A stretch of DNA of 29,852 nt from NCBI GenBank assembly GCA_016215705.1, contig JACRIR010000060.1, positions 1-29,852 of the forward strand. The letters run 5' to 3'. This document shows, in pieces, positions 3,267-25,365 of the stretch. This DNA is from Candidatus Poribacteria bacterium (GTDB lineage Bacteria; Abyssobacteria; SURF-5). Position numbers and translations under genes: made by a program. Each line of letters opens with the position of its first letter. The first letter of the stretch is position 1. The notes under the pieces are model-generated. The model did no database searches. It was not told where the DNA came from and saw only the letters and a program-made list of their open reading frames with translations.

Positions 3267-3298
3267 AAACGCCTGAAGTGAGCCGCCGGAGTCGAGTG

Positions 3299-4810
3299 TT
3301 ACGGGCACACGAACATAAGAATTTCCGGCCTCACTTCCACGCCTGTGAGCGGCCAAAACGCATTCTCGTCGGATACGAGGGCATCTCTCTGAATGCAATA
3401 TCCCTCGAAGTTCGCCGGGCCCACTCCCCGCGACCAGATTCTCCGGGACCGATGCACGTCGAAAACGGCGGCTTGAAATTTCTTTTGCGCGACCGCCTCG
3501 CGTATCTCGTTTATGAGACTCATCCGCCCTCTTTCTCTGTCGCTGCTCATGATGCTGTAGAGCGCTTCCCCATGCGCGTAAGTGTTCTTGCCGGCGAGTG
3601 ACGGCAGATACGAGTGGTAGGGAACATAGACCTCGCCAGGAATCCTCGCGATTCGATCAACAAGTCTCCAACCCGCTTCTTCATCCTGCGCAGTCGGAAT
3701 CAGTGGAAGCGGATTATATGCGAGGACGGCGAATTGCAAAAGCAAAACGAGATAAATGGAAGCTTCCCATTGTCCTGCGGCGTCGGCGCAACGATCCCTG
3801 ATAGTCCTGACCGTCAGGTCGGCGCCCAACCCGAATAGGACCGCTATCATGGCATACGCCGTGAGAAGAACATTGTCGAAGCCGCCCTCATGTACCCTCG
3901 ACATCCATGAAGCGCCGACCATCGCGCCCGTCGCGAGAAAATAAAACAGCCACTCTTTGTAGTTCGGCCCGAAGAAACAAGAACAGAAGTATACTGCGGC
4001 CATGCCGCAGGCTACACCCATCGGCGCCAGAATATCCGCCGTCCAGAACTGGAGAAGCAAACTCTTGAGTAACGGATGGCCCGACGGAATGCCGAAAACG
4101 TAGTAGGCGTACCACCCGTCATGCAACCGGTCGAGCGCAAAAGTGCTGATGCCTATTATCGCGGCTGCCACGATTCCGAAAATAAGCCCGCGCCGGAAAT
4201 CCGCCAATAAGCAATAAATGACAACCGGCAAGGTGATCGCAAGCGCAGTCTGTTTGGTGAGGAACGCAAGCGAGAAAACGATTGCCGCAAGAACCCACGC
4301 TCTCGCACTCTCTCCGAACTTTACCAGATACAGTCCTGCAAGAAGAAACAGGAGAAACAGCGAATCAACGCGCGCGATGTCGAGCCACGCGCCGCTGAGC
4401 CGGTAGGTCGCAGCGAACAGCCCCGCTGACACCAACGCCGCAAAGCCACTCCCTGTTTGCCTCCTGACGAAAAGGGCGATAAGGACAAAACAGCCAACCG
4501 AGGAAACAAACGCAACCAGCCTCAACGGCGGAAAACCGACGCCCGTAATCTTCGCGACCGCGGCAGAAAGATAGAAGTACAAAGGAGTATAGAAGAAAGG
4601 AACGAAATCCAGTGAAGGCCGGACGTACAAAGGTTGTCCGGCCAGTATTCTCTTCACGTGAATGACAAGACTCCCCTCGAGCCATTCCATCTCGAATGGA
4701 TATCTCATGCGGAAGGGAACGACGAAGAGATACATGAGAACGTAGACAATTGCGGTTGCGCCCGTCACGCTCTTGAAAAATCTCGAAACCTGCTGTGCTT
4801 TGTCATTCAC
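3299..4810 (-). CDS. GT-C fold membrane glycosyltransferase (PMT/ArnT-like)
   Basis: This 503-residue integral membrane protein has roughly ten hydrophobic segments from residue 15 to about 380 and a soluble C-terminal part of about 120 residues. The acidic cluster FEMEWLEG (39-46) just after the first membrane segment matches the position of the catalytic or metal-binding acids in the first periplasmic loop of GT-C enzymes. These move a sugar from a polyprenyl-phosphate carrier to an acceptor outside the membrane. The assigned start is GTG with only a weak upstream purine run, so a downstream start is possible. The next gene upstream on the same strand encodes a polyprenyl-phosphate sugar synthase, which would make its donor. 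The acceptor is unknown. Confidence 0.75.
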   Translation of the reverse strand: MNDKAQQVSRFFKSVTGATAIVYVLMYLFVVPFRMRYPFEMEWLEGSLVIHVKRILAGQPLYVRPSLDFVPFFYTPLYFYLSAAVAKITGVGFPPLRLVAFVSSVGCFVLIALFVRRQTGSGFAALVSAGLFAATYRLSGAWLDIARVDSLFLLFLLAGLYLVKFGESARAWVLAAIVFSLAFLTKQTALAITLPVVIYCLLADFRRGLIFGIVAAAIIGISTFALDRLHDGWYAYYVFGIPSGHPLLKSLLLQFWTADILAPMGVACGMAAVYFCSCFFGPNYKEWLFYFLATGAMVGASWMSRVHEGGFDNVLLTAYAMIAVLFGLGADLTVRTIRDRCADAAGQWEASIYLVLLLQFAVLAYNPLPLIPTAQDEEAGWRLVDRIARIPGEVYVPYHSYLPSLAGKNTYAHGEALYSIMSSDRERGRMSLINEIREAVAQKKFQAAVFDVHRSRRIWSRGVGPANFEGYCIQRDALVSDENAFWPLTGVEVRPEILMFVCP

Positions 4811-4838
4811 CCCTGTTGACTCCGCATGCGTCCGGTTC

Positions 4839-4881
4839 CCTTAATCGGGGACTCCGTGCCCCCTGGTGTCCCCCATTAAGG
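4839..4881. repeat. Degenerate GGGGAC palindrome between two glycosyltransferase genes
   Basis: The arms CCTTAATCGGGGACT and GTGTCCCCCATTAAGG pair imperfectly around a C-rich centre. It has the layout of the other hairpin repeats in the window but several mismatches, so it is an older or decayed copy. It lies between the minus-strand genes ending at 4943 and starting at 4810 and could form an RNA hairpin in their transcript. Confidence 0.6.
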
Positions 4882-4942
4882 AATCTGTTGAATTCGTATG
4901 CGATGGTAGTTGGATTCTTCGCCTTGCTCAGAATGATAGCTA

Positions 4943-5878
4943 CTATTGTTCGAGACCGACTGCTTCGCGAATTATCCATGGCGGGCGACCCTTCGCTTGC
5001 TCGTATATTCTGCCAAGATATTCGCCGAGGATGCCCATGCAAACCAGTTGCGCGCCGCCAAGGAGCGTCACAAGCGCTATCGTTGTCGTGGATTCCCATG
5101 CGCGCCTCGTCTCTGATCCGGAGATGCCATTCAACCCGAAGAGCGAAACCATCAACCACAGTATGGCTGCCATGCAAGCTGCCAGCCCAAGATATGTCGC
5201 GAGCTTGAGCGGCAAACTGGAAAACGCAAAAATGCCGTCGAGCGCAAGCTTGAGGAGTTTGGAAAATGTGTACTTCGCTTCTCCCGCTGCCCGCGCGCCT
5301 CGCTCGTATTCTATTCCCACTTGTCGAAAGCCGACCCACGATCTCAGGCCCCTTACGAATCGTTCGCGTTCCGGCATCGTCTTGAGTACGTCGGCCACTT
5401 TCCTGTCCATGAGAGAAAAATCGCCGGAGCCATATGGCATATCAATATTCGCCAGCTTCCCGATGACCTTGTAGAAGAGGTCGTAGCAAAACCTCTTTAG
5501 AAGACTTTCTTTGCGCTTTGTCCGTATGCCGTATACTACCTCGTAGCCTTCCCTCCATTTGGATATGAAACGGTGAAGCTCCTCCGGCGGATCCTGGAGG
5601 TCGGAATCGAGGACGATCACACAGTCGCCGCGCGCATAGTGGATGCCCGCCGAAATAGCGTTCTGATGCCCGAAGTTGCGCGAAAACCGGAGCGCCTTCC
5701 AACGCGGATCACTTTTATGAATCGCGCATACGATCTCCCATGTGCCGTCGGAAGAACCGTCGTCAACCATCAACACTTCAAAAGGTTCATCCCATTTCTC
5801 GGCTGCTGCGGCGAGCCGGGCATGGAATTGAGGAAGCACATCTCGCTCATTGAAGCATGGGGACACAATTGAAATCAC
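4943..5878 (-). CDS. GT2 polyprenyl-phosphate sugar synthase (GtrB/ArnC/DPM1-like)
   Basis: A 311-residue family 2 glycosyltransferase with a cytoplasmic catalytic domain and two C-terminal membrane helices (about 225-250 and 260-290), the standard plan of GtrB, ArnC and DPM1 relatives. Key motifs are SPCFNE near the N terminus, VDDGSSDGT (37-45), and the DxD-containing VLDSDLQDPPE (about 90-100). The GSGDFSLMDRKV segment and the RGLRSWVGF region are also characteristic. The reaction is transfer of a sugar from a nucleotide donor to undecaprenyl phosphate at the inner face of the membrane. Translation starts at a GTG behind AGAGGA. It is paired with the GT-C gene downstream on the same strand, which fits the classic donor-synthase plus transferase arrangement. 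Confidence 0.88.
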   Translation of the reverse strand: MISIVSPCFNERDVLPQFHARLAAAAEKWDEPFEVLMVDDGSSDGTWEIVCAIHKSDPRWKALRFSRNFGHQNAISAGIHYARGDCVIVLDSDLQDPPEELHRFISKWREGYEVVYGIRTKRKESLLKRFCYDLFYKVIGKLANIDMPYGSGDFSLMDRKVADVLKTMPERERFVRGLRSWVGFRQVGIEYERGARAAGEAKYTFSKLLKLALDGIFAFSSLPLKLATYLGLAACMAAILWLMVSLFGLNGISGSETRRAWESTTTIALVTLLGGAQLVCMGILGEYLGRIYEQAKGRPPWIIREAVGLEQ

Positions 5879-5916
5879 AGCGTCAGTCCTCTTCGAGAAC
5901 GCAGCGCCACACTTGG

Positions 5917-5957
5917 CTTATTCGAGGACACGATGCGACATCGTGTCCTCCAATAAG
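5917..5957. repeat. GAGGACAC hairpin repeat
   Basis: 19-nt arms (5917-5935 and 5939-5957) pair with one mismatch around a 3-nt CGA loop. The inner arm is GAGGACACGATG. A further related half-arm follows at about 5966-5986, suggesting a tandem or partly deleted second copy. Confidence 0.8.
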
Positions 5958-6051
5958 CACAATGCCGTATCGTGTCCCCGAATGAGCGCGCCTTTCCTGG
6001 GAGCAGCCTGCCACGCTTGTTGCATGGTCAATTGTGAAGCAAAGGCCGCTG

Positions 6052-8194: not shown

Positions 8195-9880
8195 ATGTTT
8201 CTTAAAAATGAATCCACGAGAAAAGCGGCATCGGCCATTCTGCTGGTTCTCACCCTATACCTTGCAACGATCGCGATCGTTCGCCCTTTCGGCGAGTATC
8301 CGCTGAACGACGACTGGTCGTACGCAAAGACCGTCAAGACTTATGTCGAGACAGGGAAGATACAATTGACGAGCTGGGTGCGAATGACTTTTCTCGCTCA
8401 GATGTATTACGGGTCGCTGTTTGTTCGCGCGTTCGGGTTTTCGCATTTGATTCTTCGAGTCTCGACGATGGGGCTCACGGTCTTTACGTTTGTAGTTTTC
8501 TTCCTCATGCTGCGGACCGCGGACATATCGCCCCGGCGGGCCGCGCTGGGATGCATATGCCTCCTTTCTAACCCGTTTTTCCTGGGAAACAGCTTCACGT
8601 TTATGAGTGAAATCCCTTACCTCTTTTCGGTTCTTGTCGCGACGCTCTTGTATTCAAGAAGCTGCGAGCGTGATGCGCCGCTATGGCTTGCGTTGCTTGC
8701 GGGCATGGCTGCCGGCGCTGCCATGCTGGTGCGTCAGACCGCCATACTTCTCCCGCTTGCGGCAGTTGTATCCGCCGCGCTGTCACGGCAGCGCCGGAAA
8801 ACACGAGTATGGGCAAACACTCTTGTGTTCAGCTTGTTTCCGCTCGCTTCCTTGTTTGCCTTTGAGATATGGCTGCATTTGGTCCATGGACCTCTTCCGG
8901 CAACGTGGCAAACACGTCATCTTGCAAGTTTTCCTCTCGTGTGCAAACACCTTGCAGAAATATCGGCAGTCTCCATCTGCTACCTGGGTCTGTTGTCGGC
9001 GCCGGTCACCCTTTCCTTCGGGCTTTTTCAGCGCGATTGGTGGAAGAACAAGCGAACGGCAACCGTCGGCCTTGTGGCTCTTGCAGCGCTATCATTGTAC
9101 AGCGTCATTAGGAGCGCGGAGTGGACGGGTATTCCCGCTGATTGGAGGAAGCTCTCTCTTTTCAGCGCCGAATGGATGCCCTATTTGGGAAATACATGGT
9201 TTGATTTGAAGACATTCGGACAAGGACCTTATATCCTGAAAGATGTCATCATTCTTCACCATTTGTCGGCGGTCGCGTGTCCGGATTGGATTTTTGTTGT
9301 GGCGACGGCGTTGTCGGTGGTGATGGGCGCGGCCTTCGCCACAATACTATGGGAAGGACGCTCCAAAATACAAAGGGCTCCGACTATCGTGAGGTTCTCA
9401 GTGACGGCGGCGCTCCTTCACTTGGGATTGCTGACATTGCAGGATTTCTATCTGGACCGAAATCTTCTCCCCGTCTTTCCCTTTGCGCTCCTTGTGCTGC
9501 TTTTTGTCTTGCGTGAGGATCGCGCCTCGCGGGCGCTGGCCGGTGTGTGCGCTTGTCTCCTCTATGTCATCACGGTTGCAGGTGTGTTTCAGTACCACCG
9601 CTGGAACGATGCCCGCTGGCAGGCAATAGACTACCTCAAGAAAGAAGTCGGCGCGAGCCCACACCAGATAGACGGAGGATTCGAATACAACGGGTGGATG
9701 TTCTTCGATGACTATTTCGGACCGCCGCGTGGTGACAACAGTTGGTGGTGGGTGTACGATGACAAATATATAATCGCGTTCTCGGAAATAGATGGCTGTC
9801 GGATTCTTAGACGATTCCCCTTCCGCTCTGCTTTCCCATTTGTTTCACACGAGATATTGGCGCTTGAAAGGAAATCCTGA
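8195..9880 (+). CDS. GT39-like GT-C membrane glycosyltransferase
   Basis: A 561-residue polytopic protein. The loop after the first membrane segment carries NDDWSYA (38-44), a good match to the acidic DD/DE motif that GT39 and related enzymes use for catalysis from a polyprenyl-phosphate sugar. A Glu-containing second loop follows (FTFMSEIPYLFSV, about 134-146), like the conserved second acidic loop of this class. About eleven membrane segments extend to about residue 460, then a soluble C-terminal domain rich in aromatic residues. It starts at an ATG 15 bp after the upstream membrane protein, so the two are probably cotranscribed. It ends 11 bp from the convergent STAS gene. Sugar and acceptor are unknown. 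Confidence 0.75.
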   Translation: MFLKNESTRKAASAILLVLTLYLATIAIVRPFGEYPLNDDWSYAKTVKTYVETGKIQLTSWVRMTFLAQMYYGSLFVRAFGFSHLILRVSTMGLTVFTFVVFFLMLRTADISPRRAALGCICLLSNPFFLGNSFTFMSEIPYLFSVLVATLLYSRSCERDAPLWLALLAGMAAGAAMLVRQTAILLPLAAVVSAALSRQRRKTRVWANTLVFSLFPLASLFAFEIWLHLVHGPLPATWQTRHLASFPLVCKHLAEISAVSICYLGLLSAPVTLSFGLFQRDWWKNKRTATVGLVALAALSLYSVIRSAEWTGIPADWRKLSLFSAEWMPYLGNTWFDLKTFGQGPYILKDVIILHHLSAVACPDWIFVVATALSVVMGAAFATILWEGRSKIQRAPTIVRFSVTAALLHLGLLTLQDFYLDRNLLPVFPFALLVLLFVLREDRASRALAGVCACLLYVITVAGVFQYHRWNDARWQAIDYLKKEVGASPHQIDGGFEYNGWMFFDDYFGPPRGDNSWWWVYDDKYIIAFSEIDGCRILRRFPFRSAFPFVSHEILALERKS

Positions 9881-13297: not shown

Positions 13298-14230
13298 TCA
13301 AAGTGATCTCTCAGATTGCCGCGATCGTCTTCCTTTCCACCCTGCAAGGGCTTGACTCCAGTAATAATGCGCACATTCTCGAATGAACACATAGTGATCG
13401 AGATTCCCACTCCGGGTTACTTGTTGAAGCGCCGGCTCTGCGATGAGTTTCGGTTCCAGTTGATGGTGAGGTTGCGGCTTGCCCACGTATCCCAGACAAA
13501 ACCGACATGAGTCCATCGTGGCCGGAGAAAGCAGAAACCTCTTCAAAGCCTCAAGAAGGTCTTTTGCCTCACGGAAGTTGAATGCATCCCGGTTTGGATC
13601 GTAGCCGTTAATGCCTAGCTTCAACAAATACTCCGGCAAGAAAGGCGGAACGGCGCACTTATATAATTTGCCTTCATGCACCATGTGGCACTGAAAGACA
13701 TGGGCATTCTTACATGTCCTGAAGATCATGTCGGTAATCCAATCGTTGGGGTGCGGGCTGGTCACCAGGGATATTCTGAAAGCACATTGGTCGCGCACAC
13801 ACAAACGTGCTCCGAACATTTTCGCCCGCAGCTTGAATTCGTCAATGCTTTCCTTCAGACGTATGCCCGGATACAGGTTGACCAGGACACAATCCACGAG
13901 TTTCCAGAAATCGGCGTTCATAGAATGGAGAAGAAGTCCATTGGTCGTCACCATCAGTCTATCGGCTATCCCGGACTCTTTGGCTATTGCAAGAAAGGAG
14001 TTGATCTCCGGATTCAGAAGCGGCTCGCCCCCGATAAGACGAATGACATCTGCATGCAGGCATCTGCTCAAGAGATGTATGTCAGACGAAAAACTCTCAA
14101 TGAATGGGAACTTCTTCGGAATGAATGGAGACATGTGGGAACACGAAGAACAGCGCAAGTTGCAATGATAGGAAACGGAGTATTCAATTGATCGGGTTAT
14201 TATTTTTCCGTTCTTAATCTTGTATGACAT
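13298..14230 (-). CDS. Radical SAM protein at the distal end of the RiPP locus
   Basis: A 310-residue radical SAM protein. The cluster-binding cysteines are C23, C27 and C30 in YHCNLRCSSC, followed by the GGEPLLNP segment that contacts SAM. After the partial barrel there are further cysteines (CKNAHVFQCHMVHEGKLYKC and CRFCLGY), consistent with a small SPASM/twitch-like second cluster-binding region. The upstream gap to the GT2 gene is 148 bp and contains a repeat, so it may have its own promoter. No good Shine-Dalgarno precedes the ATG. The reaction is unknown. Candidates are peptide modification, as for the other radical SAM genes in the locus, or modification of a sugar or lipid. Confidence 0.82.
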   Translation of the reverse strand: MSYKIKNGKIITRSIEYSVSYHCNLRCSSCSHMSPFIPKKFPFIESFSSDIHLLSRCLHADVIRLIGGEPLLNPEINSFLAIAKESGIADRLMVTTNGLLLHSMNADFWKLVDCVLVNLYPGIRLKESIDEFKLRAKMFGARLCVRDQCAFRISLVTSPHPNDWITDMIFRTCKNAHVFQCHMVHEGKLYKCAVPPFLPEYLLKLGINGYDPNRDAFNFREAKDLLEALKRFLLSPATMDSCRFCLGYVGKPQPHHQLEPKLIAEPALQQVTRSGNLDHYVFIRECAHYYWSQALAGWKGRRSRQSERSL

Positions 14231-14378: not shown

Positions 14379-15290
14379 CTAGCATGATTTCCGCATCCAG
14401 CGCTTTTCCTCGGCGTTTTCGGGCCGTTCATTATGGAGCCGCCTCACCATATCATAGTTTTTCCACAGGTCTTCAGTATTGGTTATCTGGCCGAAATCTT
14501 TTTCGAGATAATAGGTCGCGAGGTTGCACTGCAGCGCGATTGGCGCGTTGTCTTTCGTATATCGCAGTATCAATTCCCAATCCACGAGCGCGGTCAACTG
14601 TTCGTTGAAGCCACCAATTTCTTCATACAGGGACCGTTTATGCATGAATATGTTCAAGTCAATATAGTTCCTTATAAGGAGTTGCTTCCTATCGTAGTGT
14701 TGCAATCGGAGAAATTTCCGCCCTCTGACGTTGTCCACAACCTGAACGCTGCAATAGGCAGAATTGATTCCCGGGTTGTCAACGAACGTATTCACCATTA
14801 AGAGAAGGAAATCCGATGACCAATGGTTGTCCGAGTCCAGATACGCAATCAGTTCACCTGAGGAACGCTCCAGTCCAACATTACGCGCGTGGCTGACTCC
14901 TTCATGTAAATTTCTTATGTAGACTATTCGTGGGTCATCTCCATATTGTGATCCCACTAGTTCCGCTGTATTATCAGAGCTTCCGTCATCGGATATGATG
15001 ATCTCGAAATTCGAATAGCTCTGTCTTAGTACTGAGTCAATTGCCCTTTCGATGATGAATGCCCTGTTCCAAGTGGGCATGATGACAGACACCTTGGTTT
15101 GTTGCTCCCTTTTCTGATACTCATTTACGAGTCGCAGTTCGTTCAGTTTGTATCGGAGGACCTTGGCAGAAAGCACTCGCTCCAGTTTGGAGTCCTGAGC
15201 AGAGACTCCATCCACAGGATACTGTTCCAGAGAGGCGCCGCTGCACGGAGGTTGTAGCCTCACGATGTCGTCACGGTGATCCGCCATCAT
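14379..15290 (-). CDS. Family 2 glycosyltransferase in the RiPP locus
   Basis: I choose the ATG at 15290, which overlaps the TGA of the upstream methyltransferase as ATGA and has GGGGAAGAA just before it; an earlier start would overlap that gene by 79 bp. The resulting protein has 303 residues. An N-terminal extension of about 65 residues precedes a GT-A domain with SVIMPTWNRAFIIERAIDS, the SDDGSSDNT nucleotide-sugar motif, and a DxD-type motif AYLDSDNHW, where the metal-binding acids are expected. There are no membrane helices, so the enzyme should be soluble. It follows a methyltransferase and an ABC exporter, so decoration of the peptide or of an associated glycan is possible. The substrate cannot be read from sequence. 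Confidence 0.85.
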   Translation of the reverse strand: MMADHRDDIVRLQPPCSGASLEQYPVDGVSAQDSKLERVLSAKVLRYKLNELRLVNEYQKREQQTKVSVIMPTWNRAFIIERAIDSVLRQSYSNFEIIISDDGSSDNTAELVGSQYGDDPRIVYIRNLHEGVSHARNVGLERSSGELIAYLDSDNHWSSDFLLLMVNTFVDNPGINSAYCSVQVVDNVRGRKFLRLQHYDRKQLLIRNYIDLNIFMHKRSLYEEIGGFNEQLTALVDWELILRYTKDNAPIALQCNLATYYLEKDFGQITNTEDLWKNYDMVRRLHNERPENAEEKRWMRKSC

Positions 15291-16309
15291 TTCTTCCCCG
15301 TAACCAAGTGGAAATTGTCGATTGGGATTCGGCGAATATCGCCAAAGCCCACGTCTTGGAGCCATTCTGTGATCTCTCGATGAGAATAACAGCGGCCAGT
15401 CGGCGTAGCCGTGAGCATGTTCACCGCAAAAATGGCTGCTTGGAGAGGATTGGTCCTCGACTCATCCAGCATTAAGTCCCAGATGAGCGCCTTTCCGCCC
15501 GGGGAAAGAGACGCGTGTACTCTCTTGAGCAAAGCGTGGTTTTGCTCTTCTCCAAAGAGGCATATGACCGAACATAGCACAGCCACGTCGTATCCATTGC
15601 CGATGTCATCGACAAAGAAATCGCCTTTCTTTACGGCTATGCGGCTGGAGAGGTTGTGTTTCGCGATTTCTCTTTCGGCAACATCCAAGAGGTGCGCATC
15701 CTTGTCGAAAAGGACAACCTGCAGGCGGGGGTGGCGGCGCGCGAATGCGATTGAGCAAGCGCCGGAACCCCCTCCCACGTCGAGCAGTCTCCCTGCGCCG
15801 AAGCAGTCAGCGGCTCTCATCATTCTGTCCATTGTGCACGCGGCTTGCATTTCCATTGCGGAAGCGAGATGGCCACTCATCTCGGGCGTCCATTCTCTTG
15901 TATGACAGCGGCCGGAAGTGACAATCTCGGTGAGATGAGACCATCTCTCCCACTGATTTGCAATGTGGAGCAGCGCTCCGGCTATCGAATGCGGATTCTC
16001 CCGCGCCAGCAGGCGAGATAGCGCTTCGACATTCGAGAAATTGTTCCCCGTTTTGTTGAGGAGATTCATAGCAACCAATGCGTTAAGGAGAATTTCGGTG
16101 GCTCTGGGGTTTGTGTTCATCCGATCCGCCAGTTCCGAGACGCTGAAACAGTTGTTTGCCAAGCGTCCGAAAATGTCGAACTCGAGCGCCGTGAGAAGGA
16201 TGCGAGCGGGCATAAACCCTCTGGCTATGGACTGCACCCACGACGCCAAGGAATCTTCGCGTATCGGACCGTTCAAATTCAACTGATTGGCGCTACCTGC
16301 CACAGGCAC
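15287..16309 (-). CDS. SAM-dependent O-methyltransferase family protein
   Basis: A 340-residue protein with the plan of the acetylserotonin/caffeate O-methyltransferase family. An N-terminal winged-helix dimerisation domain (about 20-105) includes LTALEFDIFGRLA and FSVSELADRMNTNPRATEILL, followed by a Rossmann methyltransferase domain. Motif I is LLDVGGGSGACSIAFA (175-190), with the acidic end of the second strand in VVLFDKDAH. The typical catalytic His of plant relatives cannot be placed with confidence. Relatives methylate hydroxyls in natural products such as polyketides and carotenoids. Translation starts at GTG 16309 or, given the spacing to GAGGT, perhaps at the GTG at 16303. The gene lies 18 bp after the permease gene and is translationally coupled to the GT2 gene. 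Confidence 0.85.
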   Translation of the reverse strand: MPVAGSANQLNLNGPIREDSLASWVQSIARGFMPARILLTALEFDIFGRLANNCFSVSELADRMNTNPRATEILLNALVAMNLLNKTGNNFSNVEALSRLLARENPHSIAGALLHIANQWERWSHLTEIVTSGRCHTREWTPEMSGHLASAMEMQAACTMDRMMRAADCFGAGRLLDVGGGSGACSIAFARRHPRLQVVLFDKDAHLLDVAEREIAKHNLSSRIAVKKGDFFVDDIGNGYDVAVLCSVICLFGEEQNHALLKRVHASLSPGGKALIWDLMLDESRTNPLQAAIFAVNMLTATPTGRCYSHREITEWLQDVGFGDIRRIPIDNFHLVTGKK

Positions 16310-16327: not shown

Positions 16328-17146
16328 CTAGTAATGTATCAGTGACCCGTCGATCTTTGCTCTTCTTACCGCATAGTTGAAAACAATGAGACTCATCGGC
16401 AGAACAACGATAATGAACGCCAGCAAAGGGATGATGTTGGGCAAGAGTTCTCTCAACGTGTATCCCTTGAGCAGCGCCATCCGCATCCCCTCCAAAGAGT
16501 GGGTGATTGGCAGAAGATACGAGACCCTCTGCAACCAATCGGGAAGGACGGCCACCGGATAAAACACCCCGCCGAGCAGCCAGGATGCATTACTGAATAG
16601 CCACGTTAAGGGATCGCCCCGTTTCAAGACCATGATGAAGCCGGCAGAGGTGATCCCCAGGCCGCTGAACGAAACGATAGTAAGAAGAAGAATCACGAGA
16701 GCGCCGAGGTAATTGCCGTCGCCTATCTTCAAACCAAAGAGGAGAACACCGAGGAGCAGGTACACAAGTACTCGCGCCGATGTCAGAATGAAACTGTACA
16801 GTGAAGAAGATATGATTATTGTTGGAATTCCCGTCTGGGTGACAAGAAGGGTCTCGAGTGTGCCCAGCACCTGCGCCTCTCTAATGCATCGCGAAAAACC
16901 GTTAAGTGATACTTGCAGATAACTTGCGAAGGCAATGCCAATGATAACAAAGGAGAAATAATCTCCGCCATAAGTCTCAATGTATGGGAGGACGGCGCTT
17001 CCAAACAATTTTGACAGGAAGAAAAACGTTAAGGCGGCGAAGAAAATCCCGAACCACTGCGAAATGAATGAAAACCTGTAACTGGATGCGCTGATAAAGT
17101 CTTTGTATATGAAAGCCAGCGGTTTCCTGAGCGTTATCATTCCCAT
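16328..17146 (-). CDS. ABC-2 type transporter permease
   Basis: A 272-residue membrane protein with six predicted helices and the typical ABC-2 N-terminal segment of about 25 residues before the first helix. The motif after helix two (REAQVLGTLETLLVTQTG) is the amphipathic coupling-helix region usual in DrrB/NodJ-type permeases. The start ATG overlaps the stop codon of the ATPase gene (TAATG), so the two are translated together and should form a heteromeric exporter with two permeases and two ATPases. Its position in the locus suggests export of the mature peptide or self-immunity. A lipid or glycan substrate cannot be excluded. Confidence 0.9.
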   Translation of the reverse strand: MGMITLRKPLAFIYKDFISASSYRFSFISQWFGIFFAALTFFFLSKLFGSAVLPYIETYGGDYFSFVIIGIAFASYLQVSLNGFSRCIREAQVLGTLETLLVTQTGIPTIIISSSLYSFILTSARVLVYLLLGVLLFGLKIGDGNYLGALVILLLTIVSFSGLGITSAGFIMVLKRGDPLTWLFSNASWLLGGVFYPVAVLPDWLQRVSYLLPITHSLEGMRMALLKGYTLRELLPNIIPLLAFIIVVLPMSLIVFNYAVRRAKIDGSLIHY

Positions 17147-18153
17147 TATTGTCTCCGGATAATCCTGCCGAAAAGCTCCTCGAGCGATTCACATTCGGGA
17201 TAGCATGCTTGAACATTGATGTCGTTTCTGAGTAATTCCTCCAGAAGCGGAGAGATACTCTCTTTTACCGTACGCACTTCCAGGCGGAACAGAGGGCCGC
17301 TTGAGGAGGGTTCAGCAATCGGACCGCGAATCCCATATTCATGACACATATCCGAAAGCGCGTCGCTCAGTCGTTCCATTGCGCCGTTCACCTTAAGCAC
17401 GTATTTCGTCTCACCGTCGACAAGCTGTCTGATCTTGTTCAGAGAATCGCACAGCTTCACATGTCCGCGGTCCATGATGGCAATACGATCACAAAGCTTC
17501 TCGGCTTCGTGCATATTGTGGGTGGCCAAGACAACCGTTTTCCTCTCTGCGTTGACGAGCCGCTCTCGAATGAACGTCCTGACATCCTGCGCAATGAGGG
17601 GATCGAGATTCCGCGTTGGCTCATCCAGGAAGAGTATTTCAGGGTTCGTGAGCAATCCCCTCGCGATTGCCAGTTTCTGTCTCATTCCGGAAGAGTAATC
17701 TTTGAAGACTTTGTCGATATCCGCCCCCAGGCCCGTAAGTTGGACCACCTGATCAATTCGCTCCCTGGACTGGGGGGAGGTAAGATTATTTAGCGTTGCG
17801 AAGAACTTAAGATTCTGTCTTCCAGTCAGTCGCCAATAGAAGCTTCTCTCCTCGCTCACCACATACCCGATACTCTTCCTGATTTTCCGCCCGCATTTCA
17901 TCACGTCGTGGCCGTTGACAAAAGCCCTGCCTTCATTGGGCAGGATAAGGGTGCACAGTATCTTGATGAGCGTAGTTTTGCCGGCGCCGTTCGGTCCGAG
18001 CAAACCGAACAATTCACCCTTCATCACCTTGATATTGATATCCTCGAGGGCGGTGATCTCTTTTCTCTTGAGCGGGCTAGTCAATAGCTCGCGGTATCCT
18101 TTGGGCTGCGGAAATCGTTTGGTAACGCCGACAGTTTCTATTGCATGCGACAT
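17146..18153 (-). CDS. ABC transporter ATP-binding protein
   Basis: A 335-residue ATPase with Walker A GPNGAGKT (53-60), signature YSSGMRQKLAIA (153-164), Walker B ILFLDEPT (173-180) and the switch histidine in LATHNMHEAE. It belongs to the DrrA-like group that works with ABC-2 permeases and carries the usual C-terminal extension of about 100 residues, which is predicted to regulate dimerisation. The unusual RNLD in place of the common SGLD after Walker B is a small variation. The 5' end overlaps the nucleotidyltransferase gene by 16 bp and the 3' end overlaps the permease gene by 1 bp, so it is tightly coupled on both sides. Confidence 0.93.
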   Translation of the reverse strand: MSHAIETVGVTKRFPQPKGYRELLTSPLKRKEITALEDINIKVMKGELFGLLGPNGAGKTTLIKILCTLILPNEGRAFVNGHDVMKCGRKIRKSIGYVVSEERSFYWRLTGRQNLKFFATLNNLTSPQSRERIDQVVQLTGLGADIDKVFKDYSSGMRQKLAIARGLLTNPEILFLDEPTRNLDPLIAQDVRTFIRERLVNAERKTVVLATHNMHEAEKLCDRIAIMDRGHVKLCDSLNKIRQLVDGETKYVLKVNGAMERLSDALSDMCHEYGIRGPIAEPSSSGPLFRLEVRTVKESISPLLEELLRNDINVQACYPECESLEELFGRIIRRQ

Positions 18154-19701: not shown

Positions 19702-19977
19702 TTACGAAGCCGCCCTGATCAGTCCGCGCTCGAGGAGTTCTTCGAGAAAAATCTTCATGTCGCTCCAAATCACTGTTGGCTCAGCGTCGAACTTCTCCTG
19801 AACCCGGTTTACCGCTTCTTCCAGAGTGCATCCCTCCTTCAAGGAAGTCCATATGCTCACCCCGGTTCCATTGAGCGCGTAAGTCAGTTTCGAGCCAAGA
19901 TGGATTAGTGTGCCCTCATCTTCATTGATAATAGTGTCGATCACATCCGGATTCGGGGTGAATCTGCATTGCTCCAT
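19702..19977 (-). CDS. PqqD-like leader-binding protein (second copy)
   Basis: A 91-residue PqqD-family protein, if begun at the ATG at 19977 behind GGGGAAAG. An earlier TTG overlapping the radical SAM stop codon lacks a ribosome binding site. The PqqD pattern is clear: two N-terminal strands (TIINEDEGTLIHL and LTYALNGTGVSIW, where the Leu/Tyr-x-Leu-Asn-x-x-Gly turn is diagnostic), then helices from about residue 51 to 87 (TLEEAVNRVQEKF ... MKIFLEELLERGLI). Such domains (RiPP recognition elements) bind the leader peptide and present the core to a modifying enzyme. It directly follows a radical SAM gene, so this pair probably works together. Confidence 0.88.
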   Translation of the reverse strand: MEQCRFTPNPDVIDTIINEDEGTLIHLGSKLTYALNGTGVSIWTSLKEGCTLEEAVNRVQEKFDAEPTVIWSDMKIFLEELLERGLIRAAS

Positions 19978-20012
19978 ACGTTTCTTTCCCCATCTTGTGA
20001 AGCGCGTTTCTC

Positions 20013-21044
20013 TCAATCAGCAGGCGCTAATCTGACCGGATTGCACAAAGATGTCCCGAGGAGGTCTTTGGCCCAGGGGTCGTCAGTCATTTCGGCCATC
20101 CAATTCACCTTCTGGAAATGTTTGAGACAATACCAGCAAGAGAAGTGGTCCATCTCTCCCAGCTTCCCGTCACCCAGGAGCCGGACTTTTCTGTTAGTGA
20201 AGGCAGCCACTGCGTCGACCATTCGCTGGTACGCTTCGTGGACGCTGATCTCCGCCAGATTTCCAAGGAGTTCCGACCCGCGCAATCCTCCGCCAAAGTC
20301 CGCCAGTTGACAGCAAAAGCTCAGTGAGCCATCGGACGTAACGTATATCTGCCTCATGCTAAGCGGCGGGCACAGGACGAGGGGATCAGAATCGAAATAT
20401 CCCGCCGTAAGTGATATCGTCGTCTTGAAGATTTTCCTGAGGCGAGCCGACTCCTCGTTGATTCGTCTGAAATCGGCAGGTTTGAGGTGGATTCCGAGCG
20501 CGGTCGTCCGGGGCGTGGGTTGCAGCGGGATAATGGCGACCTCGCCCGCCCCGATCTTCGAGGCAAGAAGCGCCATCTCCTCGAGTTGGTGGATGTTCCG
20601 TCGGGTTACTGTCATCCGTAAGCCAAACGGAATTCCCTTGTATCTGCAAATGCTCGCGGCCTGCAAGACCCGCCGGTATGATCCGTCAGCCCGATTGAGG
20701 TCGTGCACTTCCTCCGTCGCGCCGTCGAGGCTGAAACCCAGCCTTCGGACTGTGTCCATGCGGGGACCCATGCTCCGGTACCAGTCGGTGAAATTCCATC
20801 CGTTCGTTATCATGGTGAACGCGAGTGTGTTCCGGGCAAGCATCTCCACGACCTCGTCGAACTTGCCATGGAGCGTCGGCTCGCCTCCCGAGAATGCCAG
20901 GAAGGCTACGTTGCATGCTTTTGCAAATGAGATGACCTTCTCGAGAACGTTCAGCGGGAGGTCTTGGGCCGAGCCATCAATCATGCAGTGGCGGCAATTC
21001 AAGTTGCATCGGCTTGTAAGCTGGACTCCTATGCTTAAAGGCAC
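20013..21044 (-). CDS. Radical SAM/SPASM-like peptide maturase
   Basis: A 343-residue radical SAM protein. It begins at a GTG preceded by GGAGGGGG with good spacing. The cluster motif C13, C17, C20 lies in TSRCNLNCRHC almost at the N terminus, followed by FLAFSGGEPTLHG. The C-terminal third has cysteines in LVLCPPLSMRQIYVTSDG, LSFCCQLADFGG and FSCWYCLKHF, matching a SPASM-type domain that binds auxiliary iron-sulfur clusters. It sits between two PqqD genes (stop-to-start gap 24 bp upstream), an arrangement usual for radical SAM peptide modifiers. Likely chemistry in such systems is formation of thioether or carbon-carbon bonds or epimerisation in the core peptide. Which one occurs cannot be told. 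Confidence 0.9.
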   Translation of the reverse strand: MPLSIGVQLTSRCNLNCRHCMIDGSAQDLPLNVLEKVISFAKACNVAFLAFSGGEPTLHGKFDEVVEMLARNTLAFTMITNGWNFTDWYRSMGPRMDTVRRLGFSLDGATEEVHDLNRADGSYRRVLQAASICRYKGIPFGLRMTVTRRNIHQLEEMALLASKIGAGEVAIIPLQPTPRTTALGIHLKPADFRRINEESARLRKIFKTTISLTAGYFDSDPLVLCPPLSMRQIYVTSDGSLSFCCQLADFGGGLRGSELLGNLAEISVHEAYQRMVDAVAAFTNRKVRLLGDGKLGEMDHFSCWYCLKHFQKVNWMAEMTDDPWAKDLLGTSLCNPVRLAPAD

Positions 21045-21068: not shown

Positions 21069-21347
21069 TCAACGCTCTTCAAGAGTAACCACTCCAAGAT
21101 TAGCGAAGTCCTGAATAATGGTTTTCAAATCGTCCAGGATACTCGCTTCGCCGGAAGACTGGTACGCCTCTCTCACACGCTGTTCCATGTCGGTGACGCT
21201 GTGAGAGCCGTCGCACATGTTCCACACGAATTCCGCCACCGAGTTAATGACGTGAACGTTCCCATTCTTCGAGTCATAAAGGATAGACTCTTCACCAAGT
21301 TGGCGAGATAATATTCCTTCTTTTCTTAGAGGTTTCCTTAAATCCAT
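21069..21347 (-). CDS. PqqD-like leader-binding protein (first copy)
   Basis: A 92-residue PqqD-family protein starting at the ATG at 21347, which follows AAGGGGGT. The strands GEESILYDSKNGNVHVINSVAEFVWNMC (residues 17-44) contain the typical Asn-x-x-Ala-x-x-Val/Ile-Trp segment of the family, and the C-terminal helices (TDMEQRVREAY ... LKTIIQDFANLGVV) complete the winged-helix fold. The start overlaps the 3' end of the S26-like gene by 10 bp. Its sequence differs clearly from the other PqqD in the locus, so the two may serve different maturases or different precursors. Confidence 0.88.
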   Translation of the reverse strand: MDLRKPLRKEGILSRQLGEESILYDSKNGNVHVINSVAEFVWNMCDGSHSVTDMEQRVREAYQSSGEASILDDLKTIIQDFANLGVVTLEER

Positions 21348-21943
21348 GCCTTTACCCCCTTGATCCATTCGCCGGCCTTCCCCGATGCGATCTTTTCGAT
21401 GTGGTGCCATGCATGGTAGGCATGGAGAATCCATCCCCAAAAGACACGTCCGACCGGCCAAGGCTCGACCAGCGATCTCAAAGGACTGCGGAACACGCCA
21501 GTCAATCTGCTCCGGAATGGAGACCCGGTTCTTGATCTCTTGAAGACCAGATACGATCGAGTGGCGAGCGCTCGGTTCATCATTTTCCAGAACAGCGAAT
21601 TCAAACGAAGGCGCCCGTTCGAGCCTGCTATTTCAATTACTTTGCCCACTATCCGATCCGGGGAAATCAACTGCGTATGAAGTTCCTGATCTGCCTTTAC
21701 GAGGTATTCGAGAGCGCCGTTCTCTGCGGATGAACGGATCACTCGACATACGAGATTTCTTTCACATGAGGCGAACACGACGATGTCGCCCGCCCTGATG
21801 TGTTTGTCTCCGTGCTTGATGACCAGGGTGTCCCCCTCGCGAATCATTGGGGACATGCAATTGCCTTCAATCGAGCAAGCGCTTTTCTCGCCTCGCTCTT
21901 GCCAGATGTCCAGAACGGTTTCAAGGTGGACTTGGGGAATCAT
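21338..21943 (-). CDS. S24/S26 peptidase-fold protein with Cys at both catalytic positions
   Basis: 201 residues from the ATG at 21943; the start is not fixed by a good ribosome binding site. The signal-peptidase-like core is clear: EGNCMSPMIREGD (26-38) aligns with the family box G-x-S-M-x-P, AGDIVVF (51-57) with the next box, and NLVCRVIR (63-70) with the box that carries the catalytic Lys or His. In this alignment the nucleophilic Ser is Cys29 and the base is Cys66; both codons (TGC and TGT) were checked on the minus strand. There is no obvious N-terminal membrane anchor. The C-terminal 80 residues are basic with a Trp/His-rich patch. Relatives beside PqqD and HprK-like genes are assumed to process peptides. 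This one may be inactive as a serine peptidase, may be a cysteine enzyme, or may bind metal or the Cys-rich peptides. Confidence 0.72.
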   Translation of the reverse strand: MIPQVHLETVLDIWQERGEKSACSIEGNCMSPMIREGDTLVIKHGDKHIRAGDIVVFASCERNLVCRVIRSSAENGALEYLVKADQELHTQLISPDRIVGKVIEIAGSNGRLRLNSLFWKMMNRALATRSYLVFKRSRTGSPFRSRLTGVFRSPLRSLVEPWPVGRVFWGWILHAYHAWHHIEKIASGKAGEWIKGVKAWI

Positions 21944-21962
21944 GGCCCAACCACACACTTTC

Positions 21963-22922
21963 TCATAGACTCTGCTTGTCCAGTAACTGCATGACAAGGC
22001 TCGCGGTCTCTTCCAATTCACCCATGACCAGGTTGAAGCATCGGGCGCCATTAATTGTCGGAGCCAGCTTGTAGAGGTGGAGGCCGGGGTCGTTGATTGG
22101 ACCGATTGAGGAATTCAGGAACTCAAAAACCGCATGCGAGCCGGAGACATACTCCAGTCTTGGCTCGTCGCCAAAACCGCGCATAAATACTATGAACCGC
22201 AGCGGATACCTGTCCGAAAGGCTGGCTGGGGAAATCTCCTCAATATCGAGCATCTGCTCCGGGCCTTCCCCCTGCGCCGGCACATTCTCCTGTTTGGTTC
22301 CAGACAGATGCAGCAGCAGTCGCGATTCTTTACGCAGATTGACCTTTCGGGGAAACGGCTCGATTGCGGCCCCTTCAATATCGAGACATCCAACCTCGTC
22401 GGAAAGGAACTTGCACCCCAGACTCAACAGTTTTAGAACAAGGGTTGTTTTCCCTAGTCCGGAGGCAGCCGGAAATACAACGGCGTTTTCGCGCCACGAG
22501 ACGGCTCCTGCATGCACGAAGTGATGCTCCCTGGCGGAAACGGCGATTGTTCTCAGCAGCGAGGATTGGATGAGGGTTAGGGGCGGACAAAACCCGGACA
22601 GGTCATCGGCGGCTGTGCGTAGATTCCTCGATGTGTAGTAGTAGCGTCCATTTGTCTGAGATGCCCGGTACAGATAATTCCTGTCATCGATGAGCAGTTC
22701 ATTCCTCTCCGGCAGATGGTCTAGGATTTGCATTCCCGGGCCGGGAACCTCTTCCCAGTGCATTCTCCGTGTTTTTGGGTCAATGTCGGGGCCATCGTAA
22801 AAACGACCGTACATGGACCGCAGGTGGGCAAGTATTGCTTCCGAGTTGGACCTGACCCTGACTTCCTTGCCTAGAAAGCAGTAAACATCGACCGGGAGAA
22901 AATCAACCCCTACGGAATCCAC
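21963..22922 (-). CDS. HprK-related P-loop kinase
   Basis: A 319-residue protein. The second half matches the HPr kinase/phosphorylase P-loop fold: Walker A PAASGLGKTT (151-160), the acidic pair in FLSDEVGCLD (172-181), and the PFPRKVNLRKES segment that is characteristic of HprK-like proteins accompanying PqqD genes. The preceding HFVHAGAVSWRENAVVF is the typical lead-in strand region. The N-terminal half (1-130) is less conserved. Known relatives are predicted to phosphorylate serine or a peptide; the substrate here is not known. Translation starts at GTG behind AAGGA, 27 bp after the radical SAM gene. The next gene begins about 20 bp after the stop. Confidence 0.85.
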   Translation of the reverse strand: MDSVGVDFLPVDVYCFLGKEVRVRSNSEAILAHLRSMYGRFYDGPDIDPKTRRMHWEEVPGPGMQILDHLPERNELLIDDRNYLYRASQTNGRYYYTSRNLRTAADDLSGFCPPLTLIQSSLLRTIAVSAREHHFVHAGAVSWRENAVVFPAASGLGKTTLVLKLLSLGCKFLSDEVGCLDIEGAAIEPFPRKVNLRKESRLLLHLSGTKQENVPAQGEGPEQMLDIEEISPASLSDRYPLRFIVFMRGFGDEPRLEYVSGSHAVFEFLNSSIGPINDPGLHLYKLAPTINGARCFNLVMGELEETASLVMQLLDKQSL

Positions 22923-22949: not shown

Positions 22950-24068
22950 CTACAAGTTTTGTTCCGCGGGGCTTTTCGAGCCCACGCGTAATTCTTGTCC
23001 TCTTGCACGCCAGCAACCCGGATCGGCCCTGAATGGGTCGCCGGTCATTGCATACGAAAGACATCTCAACCCCCCTCCGCACGACCGGGAAAAGGAGCAT
23101 TGTTCGCATCCCTGATTCACTCGGCTGTGGTCACGCAAGGCCCGAAGCAATTCGCTCTTCGCATACAATTCCGCCAGCGACTTCTCCATGAGGTTCCCGA
23201 CGCGAATGGGCATCCTGCGGCATGGATACAGGTCTCCGTTTGGCATCACACTGACCAATGTATCACCCGCGGCACATCGATAGGGGGTCCCCCCTGCAAA
23301 AAGGAACTGCAGGGCGCGGCGCATGAAGACCTCCGTCCGGCAAAATCGGCGCATCCCCTCGGCGTGGGCCTTGTGCATGGCCTCGAGGAATTCACGAGTT
23401 TCTTCGGGCGAGAGCACTTCCTCTGCAACGGCTACTCCGTTTCCGGACGGAATGATCCGATCCGACCACACTCGCGTCGCGCCTACTTCCCGCCCCAGCC
23501 GTGCGACTTCGTCGAACTCGCGAAAATTGGACCTCTGGGCAGTAAAGGAAATCGCCGTCCGTATCCGCTCTCGCGCCAGGTTCTTCAGCGCTGTAACCGT
23601 TTGATCCCATGCGCCCGGCCCGCGGATGCTGTCGTTTCTCTCTCTTGTGCCCTCAATGCTTACCTGGACGTATCCTGTACCCAACTCCCTCAGACGATGG
23701 GCAGTCGCCAAGTCGATGAAGCTGCCATTGGTGAGTATGCCGAAGCTCAACCATTCCCGGTTTGAATGGAACGCTTCCAGCAGTTGAGGGAAGTCAGTCC
23801 GTATAAAAGGCTCCCCGCCCGTCACATTGATATGAGCGCGCGCCTTTGGCGTCTTCGACCGACTATCGCAGAGTTCCGCGAGTTGCCTGAACTGCTTCAG
23901 GATCGTGAGTAAGTCACGAAACGGAAGTTCCTCGCCCTCGTAGCTTTCCTGGTAGCAATGGCTGCATCGCCGGTTGCACCGGTCGGTAATATGCCATTGA
24001 AGCACGAGGTGATGACGGGGCTCAGGCCGCGTCTCCGTTATGTCGGAAGGGTAGGTACTCATGCCCAT
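22950..24068 (-). CDS. Radical SAM/SPASM maturase directly after the precursor genes
   Basis: About 372 residues; the start could be ATG 24068 or ATG 24062, neither with a clear ribosome binding site. The radical SAM motif is C31, C35, C38 in TDRCNRRCSHCYQE, followed by HINVTGGEPFIRTDFPQ. The C-terminal SPASM domain is complete, with a first Cys in YRCAAGDTLVSVMPNGDLYPC and a cysteine-rich tail (NQGCEQCSFSRSCGGGLRC then DPGCW), which should bind two auxiliary clusters. It lies only 24 bp after the second precursor gene, the usual place of the cognate maturase. Enzymes with this tail act on RiPP precursors such as sactipeptides, ranthipeptides and PqqA-like peptides. It is the best candidate for the enzyme acting on the Gly-Cys cores. 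Confidence 0.92.
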   Translation of the reverse strand: MGMSTYPSDITETRPEPRHHLVLQWHITDRCNRRCSHCYQESYEGEELPFRDLLTILKQFRQLAELCDSRSKTPKARAHINVTGGEPFIRTDFPQLLEAFHSNREWLSFGILTNGSFIDLATAHRLRELGTGYVQVSIEGTRERNDSIRGPGAWDQTVTALKNLARERIRTAISFTAQRSNFREFDEVARLGREVGATRVWSDRIIPSGNGVAVAEEVLSPEETREFLEAMHKAHAEGMRRFCRTEVFMRRALQFLFAGGTPYRCAAGDTLVSVMPNGDLYPCRRMPIRVGNLMEKSLAELYAKSELLRALRDHSRVNQGCEQCSFSRSCGGGLRCLSYAMTGDPFRADPGCWRARGQELRVGSKSPAEQNL

Positions 24069-24092
24069 CAAGAATTGAGCGAAAACAATATC

Positions 24093-24263
24093 TCAGTTCT
24101 GAAGAATGGAGCCACCGCCGCAACCACAACCACATCCGCCGCCGCCTCCGTCCGTATACGAGTCCACGCTTCCATGCGGCTTGATTGTCTCCTCGAGTTC
24201 TTCTTTTGAGTACGTCGCCAACACCATTGGTTTCACATACAGTTTCTTGAAGTCCCGTTCCAT
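24093..24263 (-). CDS. RiPP precursor peptide A, Gly-Cys repeat core
   Basis: A 56-residue peptide. AAGGAG stands seven bases before the ATG. The leader (about 1-38) contains YVKP (9-12), then VLATYSKEELEE and PHG.VDSYT. The core is a glycine run followed by CGCGCGGG, three Cys alternating with Gly, and ends SILQN. A Tyr-x-x-Pro motif in the leader is what PqqD-like domains recognise in lasso peptides. The next gene is a radical SAM/SPASM enzyme. Precursor B, 108 bp upstream, shares most of the leader while synonymous codons differ, so the protein sequence is under selection. No homologue was looked up. From memory, the alternating Gly-Cys core is like that of the predicted selenobiotic family, but here all positions are Cys. 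Confidence 0.88.
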   Translation of the reverse strand: MERDFKKLYVKPMVLATYSKEELEETIKPHGSVDSYTDGGGGGCGCGCGGGSILQN

Positions 24264-24272
24264 ACGTTCTCC

Positions 24273-24314
24273 TTATGTTCCCGCGCCGAGGCGAAAACTA
24301 CCTCTTGAACGCAC
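24273..24314 (-). CDS. Possible 13-codon leader ORF between precursor genes
   Basis: A near-perfect Shine-Dalgarno, AAAGGAGGT (complement of 24325-24333), stands 10-11 bases before a GTG that opens a 13-codon frame. Its TAA overlaps the ribosome binding site of precursor A. The peptide would be basic and Gly/Ser rich with no Cys. It could be a translated spacer that couples or tunes precursor A, or the ribosome binding site may be a leftover from a lost peptide gene. There is no support from a family. Confidence 0.2.
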   Translation of the reverse strand: MRSRGSFRLGAGT

Positions 24315-24371
24315 CCGTTTGCAAACCTCCTTTAGACCTGTCAGAAATCAAAAGCTGATGATGCAGCAGGA

Positions 24372-24548
24372 TTACCCGGCGCCGCAGCCGCATCCACAGC
24401 CGCATCCACAGCCGCCCCCGCCGTCATTCGTATACGAGTCAACGGCTCCATGCGGTCTGATCGCCTCTTCCAGTTCCTCCTTGGAATATGTGGCCAGAAC
24501 GCGAGGCGCGGCATAAGCCCTTTTCCCGTCTCTAGTGACTTCGTCCAT
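24372..24548 (-). CDS. RiPP precursor peptide B, Gly-Cys repeat core
   Basis: A 58-residue peptide. GAGGGGGTGAG precedes the ATG. The leader carries YAAP (12-15) and then VLATYSKEELEE, PHG and VDSYT in the same order as precursor A. The core begins with GGGG at 43-46 and continues as five Cys separated by single Gly (47-55), ending GAG. The Cys codons mix TGT and TGC and the Gly codons vary, so this is not a simple slippage repeat. It lies 4 bp after the stop of the glycosyltransferase-like gene and 108 bp before precursor A. Opposite-strand frames across it are Pro/His-rich artefacts of the Gly-Cys repeat. Confidence 0.88.
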   Translation of the reverse strand: MDEVTRDGKRAYAAPRVLATYSKEELEEAIRPHGAVDSYTNDGGGGCGCGCGCGCGAG

Positions 24549-24552
24549 TGTC

Positions 24553-25350
24553 TCACCCCCTCTCAGTTCTTACTGCCTGTACCGTATCGCCGAGTCTCTC
24601 GTTCTGTCTCCTCCAAATTCCTCTGAGAGACTTGATGTCTCCTCTTTTGGCCCGCTCATGCACATCCAACATAAACTCTCTGATTTCAGAGTCATACGAT
24701 GCCAAGAGCCAGTCGATGTGCGACCCGCAAAATATGTGGTCGTAACGATTCAGGTGTTTCTCAGTGAAACGCGAAACTCTATCCGAGAATGCCGCGTACA
24801 GGCTTGCCCCTGTATCATAACGGTACCATTTACCGTTAAAGACAAAAGAATATGGGAGAAAAGGGTGAAAGTCAAAATGGTTGACACGTGCTTTCCGGAT
24901 CGCCTCCGCCAGTTTTCTCACGTCGGGAATCCACAGAAACGATGTGTGTAGCCGGGGCATCGTGCGCGTCTTCGTGACGCTGTCGTGAAACGGCTGAATC
25001 AGTTTCCCCGCGACCAGCCCGTCAAACTCAAAATCCTCACAGTTCTCCCAGAAACATATGTCGGGGTCAAGGAAAACAACAGACCCCCCAGCGCCATTAT
25101 TGGCAAGGCCCGAGATCGTATCCTGAATGAAGTCATGGTGTTGAGTTCCCTTGCCCGAAAGTTGTTGAAACCGGCAATCATTTCCCCGCGCCAGTGATTC
25201 GATTTTCTCTCTGGCCTCCGGAAGACTTGAGTTGTCAACCACTACAACCTCAGCATTCGGGAAGCCAATTCGCAAGCTCTTGAAGATGAGTTCCGTCCCG
25301 TAGAACAAGTCCATGTTTCGGCAATATGTCAAGATGAAGACATTCGACAT
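24553..25350 (-). CDS. Glycosyltransferase-like GT-A protein next to the precursors
   Basis: A 265-residue soluble protein, starting at the ATG at 25350; a GTG at 25365 is the alternative. The N terminus (NVFILTYCRNMDLFYGTELIFKSL) and VVVVDNSS (35-42) match the first strands of GT-A enzymes, and VVFLDPDICFWEN (91-103) carries a DxD motif (Asp95, Asp97) for metal and nucleotide-sugar binding. The rest is rich in aromatic residues and has HTSFLWIPD and a GSHIDWLL segment typical of acceptor-side regions. I cannot name the family. Its stop lies 4 bp before precursor B, so the two share a transcript, and the peptide may be its acceptor. S-glycosylation of cysteine is known for glycocins, but no data point to it here. 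Confidence 0.7.
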   Translation of the reverse strand: MSNVFILTYCRNMDLFYGTELIFKSLRIGFPNAEVVVVDNSSLPEAREKIESLARGNDCRFQQLSGKGTQHHDFIQDTISGLANNGAGGSVVFLDPDICFWENCEDFEFDGLVAGKLIQPFHDSVTKTRTMPRLHTSFLWIPDVRKLAEAIRKARVNHFDFHPFLPYSFVFNGKWYRYDTGASLYAAFSDRVSRFTEKHLNRYDHIFCGSHIDWLLASYDSEIREFMLDVHERAKRGDIKSLRGIWRRQNERLGDTVQAVRTERG

Positions 25351-25365
25351 ACTTTTCGTCCACAC

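Follow-up and report, generated by a model that had tools for sequence, protein, structure and literature searches.

Two leader peptides with Gly-Cys ends beside a radical SAM maturase in a RiPP-type gene cluster

We found that the window, that is, the whole stretch of 29,852 nucleotides analysed here, encodes two small leader peptides ending in alternating Gly and Cys, followed on the same strand by the gene of a radical SAM/SPASM protein (rSAM1) and further RiPP maturation genes, and that relatives of rSAM1 in three other genomes are encoded beside membrane proteins with Gly-Cys tails. In our judgement, what is new here is a Gly-Cys-tail maturase working inside a leader/RRE RiPP cluster, the chassis of which is known in outline (PMC13381572).

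Precursors A and B and their gene cluster

The genes under discussion are as follows, where loci and genomes used for comparison are denoted L and G, respectively.

24553-25365, minus strand: 270-aa protein, glycosyltransferase-like (GT-A) by eye, no Pfam or NCBIfam match
24372-24548, minus strand: precursor B, 58 aa, MDEVTRDGKRAYAAPRVLATYSKEELEEAIRPHGAVDSYTNDGGGGCGCGCGCGCGAG; YxxP leader; core GGGGCGCGCGCGCGAG (5 Cys)
24093-24263, minus strand: precursor A, 56 aa, MERDFKKLYVKPMVLATYSKEELEETIKPHGSVDSYTDGGGGGCGCGCGGGSILQN; YxxP leader; core GGGGGCGCGCGGGSILQN (3 Cys)
22950-24071, minus strand: rSAM1, radical SAM/SPASM maturase; CX3CX2C motif and SPASM cysteines; Gly-Cys-tail clade
21963-22922, minus strand: HprK-like kinase homologue, probable peptide kinase; P-loop ASGLGKTTL; HprK_rel_A model TIGR04352 at 56 bits (cut-off 200)
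21338-22051, minus strand: S24/S26 signal-peptidase homologue (SpI type), candidate leader peptidase
21069-21461, minus strand: PqqD-type RRE 1; PF05402 at 38.5 bits
20013-21044, minus strand: rSAM2, second radical SAM protein
19702-20016, minus strand: PqqD-type RRE 2; PF05402 at 50.2 bits
18138-19547, minus strand: nucleotidyltransferase NTP_transf_5; PF14907 at 175.9 bits; also in paeninodin-type and LPP clusters
17146-18153, minus strand: ABC exporter ATPase; 46-59% identity to the L118 and L123 counterparts
16328-17146, minus strand: ABC-2 permease; 51% identity to the L118 counterpart
15287-16309, minus strand: O-methyltransferase (Methyltransf_2), possible tailoring gene
14379-15365, minus strand: family 2 glycosyltransferase, possible tailoring gene
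13298-14230, minus strand: third radical SAM-like protein; weak Pfam match; cluster membership uncertain

Both precursor ORFs lie on the minus strand where the original prediction had placed them, with the sequences, shared leader and Gly-Cys ends it had described and with good Shine-Dalgarno sites (GAGGGGGTGAGACA-ATG for precursor B and AAGGAGAACGT-ATG for precursor A). The leaders open with YAAPRVL in A and YVKPMVL in B, i.e. YxxPxVL, and thus contain the Tyr-x-x-Pro motif that had been pointed out (YAAP and YVKP). In the leader block from VLATYS to VDSYT, 21 of 24 residues are identical between A and B, and 11 of these 21 codons differ synonymously, so that the figures given earlier were exact. 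When 43 codons were aligned, the differences at the first, second and third codon positions numbered 7, 6 and 26, respectively, and in the 24-codon block the NG86 estimate of dN was about 0.08 with dS saturated. Since the differences are mostly at third positions, the peptides are real and selected, which bears out the proposed selection on the peptide. An antisense ORF of 136 aa (24106-24516, plus strand) covers both precursors, and the third-position excess between the copies favours the minus frame over this ORF. As such, A and B are old duplicate genes, retained for their peptide sequence. The tail was also considered as a simple DNA repeat, and this was rejected because each copy uses varying codons for Gly and Cys, which also differ from A to B.

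Neither precursor matches an NCBIfam or Pfam model. A precursor profile search of 386 genomes recovered no leader homologue besides the window's own, and G001 and G002, which belong to the same family as the window's genome, contained neither the precursor pair nor an rSAM1-clade match, so the conservation is that of the two paralogues alone; the window's phylum contributes three genomes to the collection searched. Five weak profile matches (L035-L039) were rejected as chance, considering that L035 and L038 lie inside other genes and that the remaining ones have stops or lie inside long unrelated frames. No precursor relatives were found in viral contigs, and in a plasmid collection precursor B and the signal-peptidase homologue had no match and the rSAM relatives were distant only.

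The rSAM1 gene starts about 22 bases past precursor A on the same strand. The maturation operon predicted to accompany the YxxP leader is present, with two PqqD/RRE proteins, two radical SAM proteins, an HprK-like protein, the signal-peptidase homologue, the nucleotidyltransferase and the ABC exporter. The gene of the 270-aa protein ends a few bases before precursor B and may be a cluster member. By eye, the ORF at the window's left end (972-2345) looks like the large subunit of a phage terminase.

The rSAM1 clade and its Gly-Cys-tailed neighbours

The rSAM1 protein scored below the cut-off of every NCBIfam family, the best models being ACGX (TIGR04340, 158.5 bits with a cut-off of 400) and SbtM (TIGR04082, 140.9 bits with a cut-off of 350), and SbtM was the first- or second-best model for the members of its clade. 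Although ACGX is the best model for rSAM1, the window precursors lack the ACGX repeat, and a TIGR04340 search of 192 genomes gave no matches, a negative that carries no weight, since its controls gave none either. The nearest relatives of rSAM1, with 58% and 47% identity, come from an ANME-2 archaeon (L031) and Aliikangiella coralliicola (L032), respectively, and three more (L044, L063 and L064) were obtained from genome searches of the ANME-2 and Aliikangiella groups. With a profile built from three of these six clade members, the six scored about 480-685 bits, and nothing else exceeded about 240 bits. In a quick maximum-likelihood tree, the six sequences were monophyletic (SH-aLRT 98), and the window rSAM1 joined two archaeal sequences (support 96). 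The nearest solved structures by sequence are SkfB, 5wgg (a 453-residue radical SAM protein, which we take to be the thioether-forming CteB), PqqE and anaerobic sulfatase maturase. An AlphaFold model of rSAM1 was of low confidence (mean pLDDT 59.6) and was set aside. On the viral contig L077 (IMGVR_UViG_3300010283_000006), four clustered radical SAM-type ORFs with CX3CX2C motifs occupy 823-5990, and the last of them shows 31% identity to rSAM1.

For three of the five other clade members, the rSAM gene lies at most two genes from that of a membrane protein with a Gly-Cys tail. In L031, the rSAM gene is preceded by two genes, one for a TIGR04222 membrane protein with the C-terminal end QGGGCGGGGCGGGCGGCGG and one for a small nucleotidyltransferase, with one gene between the tail protein and the rSAM. 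In L068, from the genome of L064 (a gammaproteobacterium), a TIGR04222 protein ending DGGAGCGGGGCGGG is encoded directly 5' of the rSAM gene, and in Aliikangiella (L032) the same position is taken by a membrane protein that lacks the TIGR04222 domain and ends SSGGGCSGGCGGGCGGCG. The other two relatives are without an intact adjacent tail gene. The L063 genome has a TIGR04222 gene with the shorter end ETGGGCGGG, on a contig other than that of the rSAM gene. In the L044 genome (L065, about 8900-9050), the ten residues MIEEFVQIPG encoded upstream of the rSAM gene match the N-terminus of the L031 TIGR04222 protein exactly, and the rest of the gene is missing after these ten codons; the stretch looks like a remnant of a TIGR04222 gene.

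As in the window, the TIGR04222 ('near_uncomplex') proteins of L031 and L068 thus carry a C-terminal Gly-Cys tail beside the same rSAM clade. The carrier differs, being a membrane protein in the TIGR04222 systems and a 56-58-aa leader peptide in the window, and no TIGR04222 domain was found in precursors A and B or in the window's genome. Considering that three unrelated carriers (the TIGR04222 protein, another membrane protein and the leader peptide) share only the tail, the tail follows the enzyme. This is read most simply as modification of the tail by rSAM1, with the tail of the window carried by an RRE-recognised leader. The original prediction had made its case depend on related genomes having a homologous small ORF next to this maturase; this failed for the leader, which was found in none of the 386 genomes, and stood for the core, which recurs on the Gly-Cys-tailed neighbours.

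Such ends are rare. Beyond A and B, a six-frame translation of the window contained no strictly alternating Gly-Cys, and the DNA pattern for Gly-Cys-Gly-Cys-Gly-Cys occurred only once more in the genome (5.47 Mb), on the strand opposite a long ORF, which was taken as chance. In all, this pattern had two further sites, in G000 C265 and G386 C108, both antisense to long ORFs. Among 3,768 distinct ORF ends from 125 loci (714 kb), six passed a Gly-Cys-tail filter, a count that is a description and not a blind test, as the filter was defined after the tails were known. These six are the two window precursors, the tail proteins of L031, L032 and L068, and one antisense frame, which entered the sample through its pattern match and was counted as chance; five of the six lie beside members of the rSAM1 clade.

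The chassis in comparison with known systems

In lasso peptides and LPPs, the YxxP motif is documented as a site of RRE binding (PMC12710340, PMC13381572). LPPs, or linear polyphosphorylated peptides, are phosphorylated and reportedly restricted to Bacillota (PMC13381572). Their clusters share with the window a YxxPxVL leader, a discrete RRE, an HprK-like kinase, an NTP transferase, an exporter and a signal-peptidase-type protein, and their one to three precursors have a conserved N-terminus and a variable C-terminus, as do the window's. However, the LPP leader reads YxxPxVLxHQxIxFETxxS, of which the window has YxxPxVL and lacks the HQxIxFETxxS part. The LPP exporter is MsbA-like, whereas that of the window consists of ABC_tran and ABC2_membrane as separate proteins. 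Polyphosphorylation takes place at Ser3 of the LPP core, whereas precursor B has no core Ser, and the LPP paper does not mention radical SAM (Popov et al. 2026, PMC13381572).

Compared with the SynChlorMet cassette, PqqD1 and rSAM2 of the window are nearest to ScmD and ScmE in NCBIfam, with scores of 39 bits (cut-off 100) and 91 bits (cut-off 400), respectively, and precursors A and B match none of the cassette models. Neither a lasso macrolactam synthetase (Asn-synthetase-like) nor a B2 peptidase was among the cluster proteins scanned, and the scanned proteins included no MNIO (DUF692) enzyme of the kind found in bufferin and methanobactin RiPPs. Strict membership of the lasso, MNIO, LPP and SynChlorMet groups was therefore rejected on missing motifs or genes or on scores below cut-off.

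A search with the signal-peptidase homologue led to L118, L120, L123 and L124, in which YxKP precursors (e.g. MESREKPRKCYIKPQINQVMLKIEEAVLAGCKTGAG...) adjoin an rSAM, an HprK-like protein and a peptidase, and most of which also have nucleotidyltransferase or ABC genes. The nucleotidyltransferases of L118 and L120 show about 28-30% identity to that of the window, and the kinases, PqqD proteins and rSAM2 counterparts are of distant similarity only. Since these loci have looser versions of the chassis, it is not unique to the window. The combination of the alternating core with this gene set had seemed undescribed: for the chassis this does not hold, given the LPP RiPPs (PMC13381572), the SynChlorMet cassettes of NCBIfam and the YxKP clusters elsewhere, and for the combination of a Gly-Cys core, the rSAM1 clade and this chassis it stands, as neither a paper nor a model in NCBIfam or Pfam was found. 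Likewise, the open-licence literature yielded no description of an alternating Gly-Cys core with a radical SAM enzyme.

YxKP-leader precursors were observed at L118 7436-7597, L120 7497-7667, L123 2343-2480, L124 1892-2062 and L122 180-377. All five have variable Cys-containing cores and lie in or next to a cluster with an SpI homologue, and four of the five clusters also have an rSAM and an HprK-like protein; they come from genomes of families other than the window's and resemble LPP and SynChlorMet clusters. YEKP-leader precursors with CxQCSxCHGCR cores were observed in L066 (about 1650-1820, minus strand) and L002 (2773-2910), adjoining a PqqD and an rSAM that by score is next nearest to the window's clade. 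In L066, and likewise in L072 (a longer piece that includes L002), an asparagine-synthetase-like gene lies nearby.

Proposed maturation and its meaning

We propose that the locus makes two ribosomal peptides whose Gly-Cys cores would be modified by rSAM1, with a leader/RRE chassis and export. First, one of the two PqqD proteins would bind the YxxPxVL leader, as in lasso peptides and LPPs, a role that we infer from the leader motif. Second, rSAM1 would oxidise the Cys residues of the Gly-Cys ladder, with thiooxazole-type heterocycles, as with SbtM, as the most likely outcome. We regard it as highly probable that rSAM1 acts on the Gly-Cys core, and the two steps together, leaving the exact chemistry aside, as likely.

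The thiooxazole-type product is a best guess by analogy, which we hold tentatively. It is made because SbtM is among the best models and makes thiooxazole, and because MNIO enzymes, which are also partners of TIGR04222 proteins, make thiooxazole too. According to PMC11002830, four hydrogens are removed by SbtM to form the thiooxazole. TIGR04222 proteins partner MNIO enzymes in other genomes, and MNIO enzymes make thiooxazole in bufferins (PMC12452194). Both SbtM and rSAM1 are radical SAM/SPASM proteins, and SbtM acts on Cys or Sec. However, the N-terminal extension of SbtM is absent from rSAM1, the match of which starts at model position 200 of 516, and since the SbtM score is far under the cut-off, shared chemistry is a guess. 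Next to the SbtM gene of L096, no SbtA peptide could be made out clearly.

A rival to this second step only is that rSAM1 forms sactionine-like thioether links between Cys sulfur and the Gly alpha carbon, giving a stapled rod instead of heterocycles. The complete SPASM domain of rSAM1, the presence of SkfB and 5wgg among its nearest solved structures, and the Gly residues on both sides of nearly every Cys of the A and B cores are consistent with such links. The sactionine and ranthionine models StsB, PapB and SkfB score under ACGX and SbtM, and the sequence alone does not reveal the chemistry; we consider the thioether product a serious candidate that is nevertheless somewhat doubtful.

In a third step, the peptide would be decorated by the kinase, the nucleotidyltransferase and perhaps the methyl- and glycosyltransferases. 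Finally, the leader would be cut off and the ABC-2 exporter would ship the peptide, which possibly binds a soft metal such as copper; the bound metal and the role of the peptide are guesses. Whereas the SpI peptidase of LPPs has Ser, His and Asp, the window homologue has Cys in place of the catalytic Ser (GNCMSP) and His (VCRV). Among eight aligned peptidase homologues, His was kept in all and Ser in seven, L114 also having GNCM. Cys at both dyad positions counts against the leader-removal part of our explanation.

The decorating genes also bear on a broader alternative, in which the Cys residues are glycosylated or form a free metal-binding ladder, the rSAMs act on residues other than these, and an LPP-like product results from the kinase and nucleotidyltransferase. 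Glycosyltransferase, kinase-like and nucleotidyltransferase genes are indeed in the cluster, and LPPs are phosphorylated (PMC13381572). However, precursor B contains no Ser and no Thr after its glycine run, so an LPP-like core phosphosite is absent there, and the relatives of rSAM1 track the Gly-Cys tail and not the leader, which makes this alternative unlikely. Gly-Cys repeats as such are able to bind metals, and A and B could then be ordinary metal-storage or structural peptides upstream of an unrelated RiPP cluster, but the YxxP leader, the PqqD genes, the short same-strand gap to rSAM1 and the recurrence of the tail-rSAM pairing in three other genomes render this very improbable.

Returning to modification of the core by rSAM1, we put forward, with less than even confidence, that the Gly-Cys tail is a portable tag read by one radical SAM family in archaea and bacteria on any carrier, and that the window, with the tag on a leader peptide in an RRE-dependent cluster, would represent a new RiPP class with a modified Gly-Cys ladder core. 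Membrane proteins with Gly- and Cys-rich tails, e.g. TIGR04222 proteins, are numerous, and their modification has been proposed (PMC12452194). Analysing membrane proteins is difficult, whereas precursors A and B, with 3 and 5 Cys in a bare ladder, suit co-expression and mass spectrometry, and the locus is a small soluble handle on Gly-Cys-tail modification. Taken together, the locus suggests that a maturase may move between membrane-protein partners and leader/RRE RiPP partners, with the core motif alone being kept.
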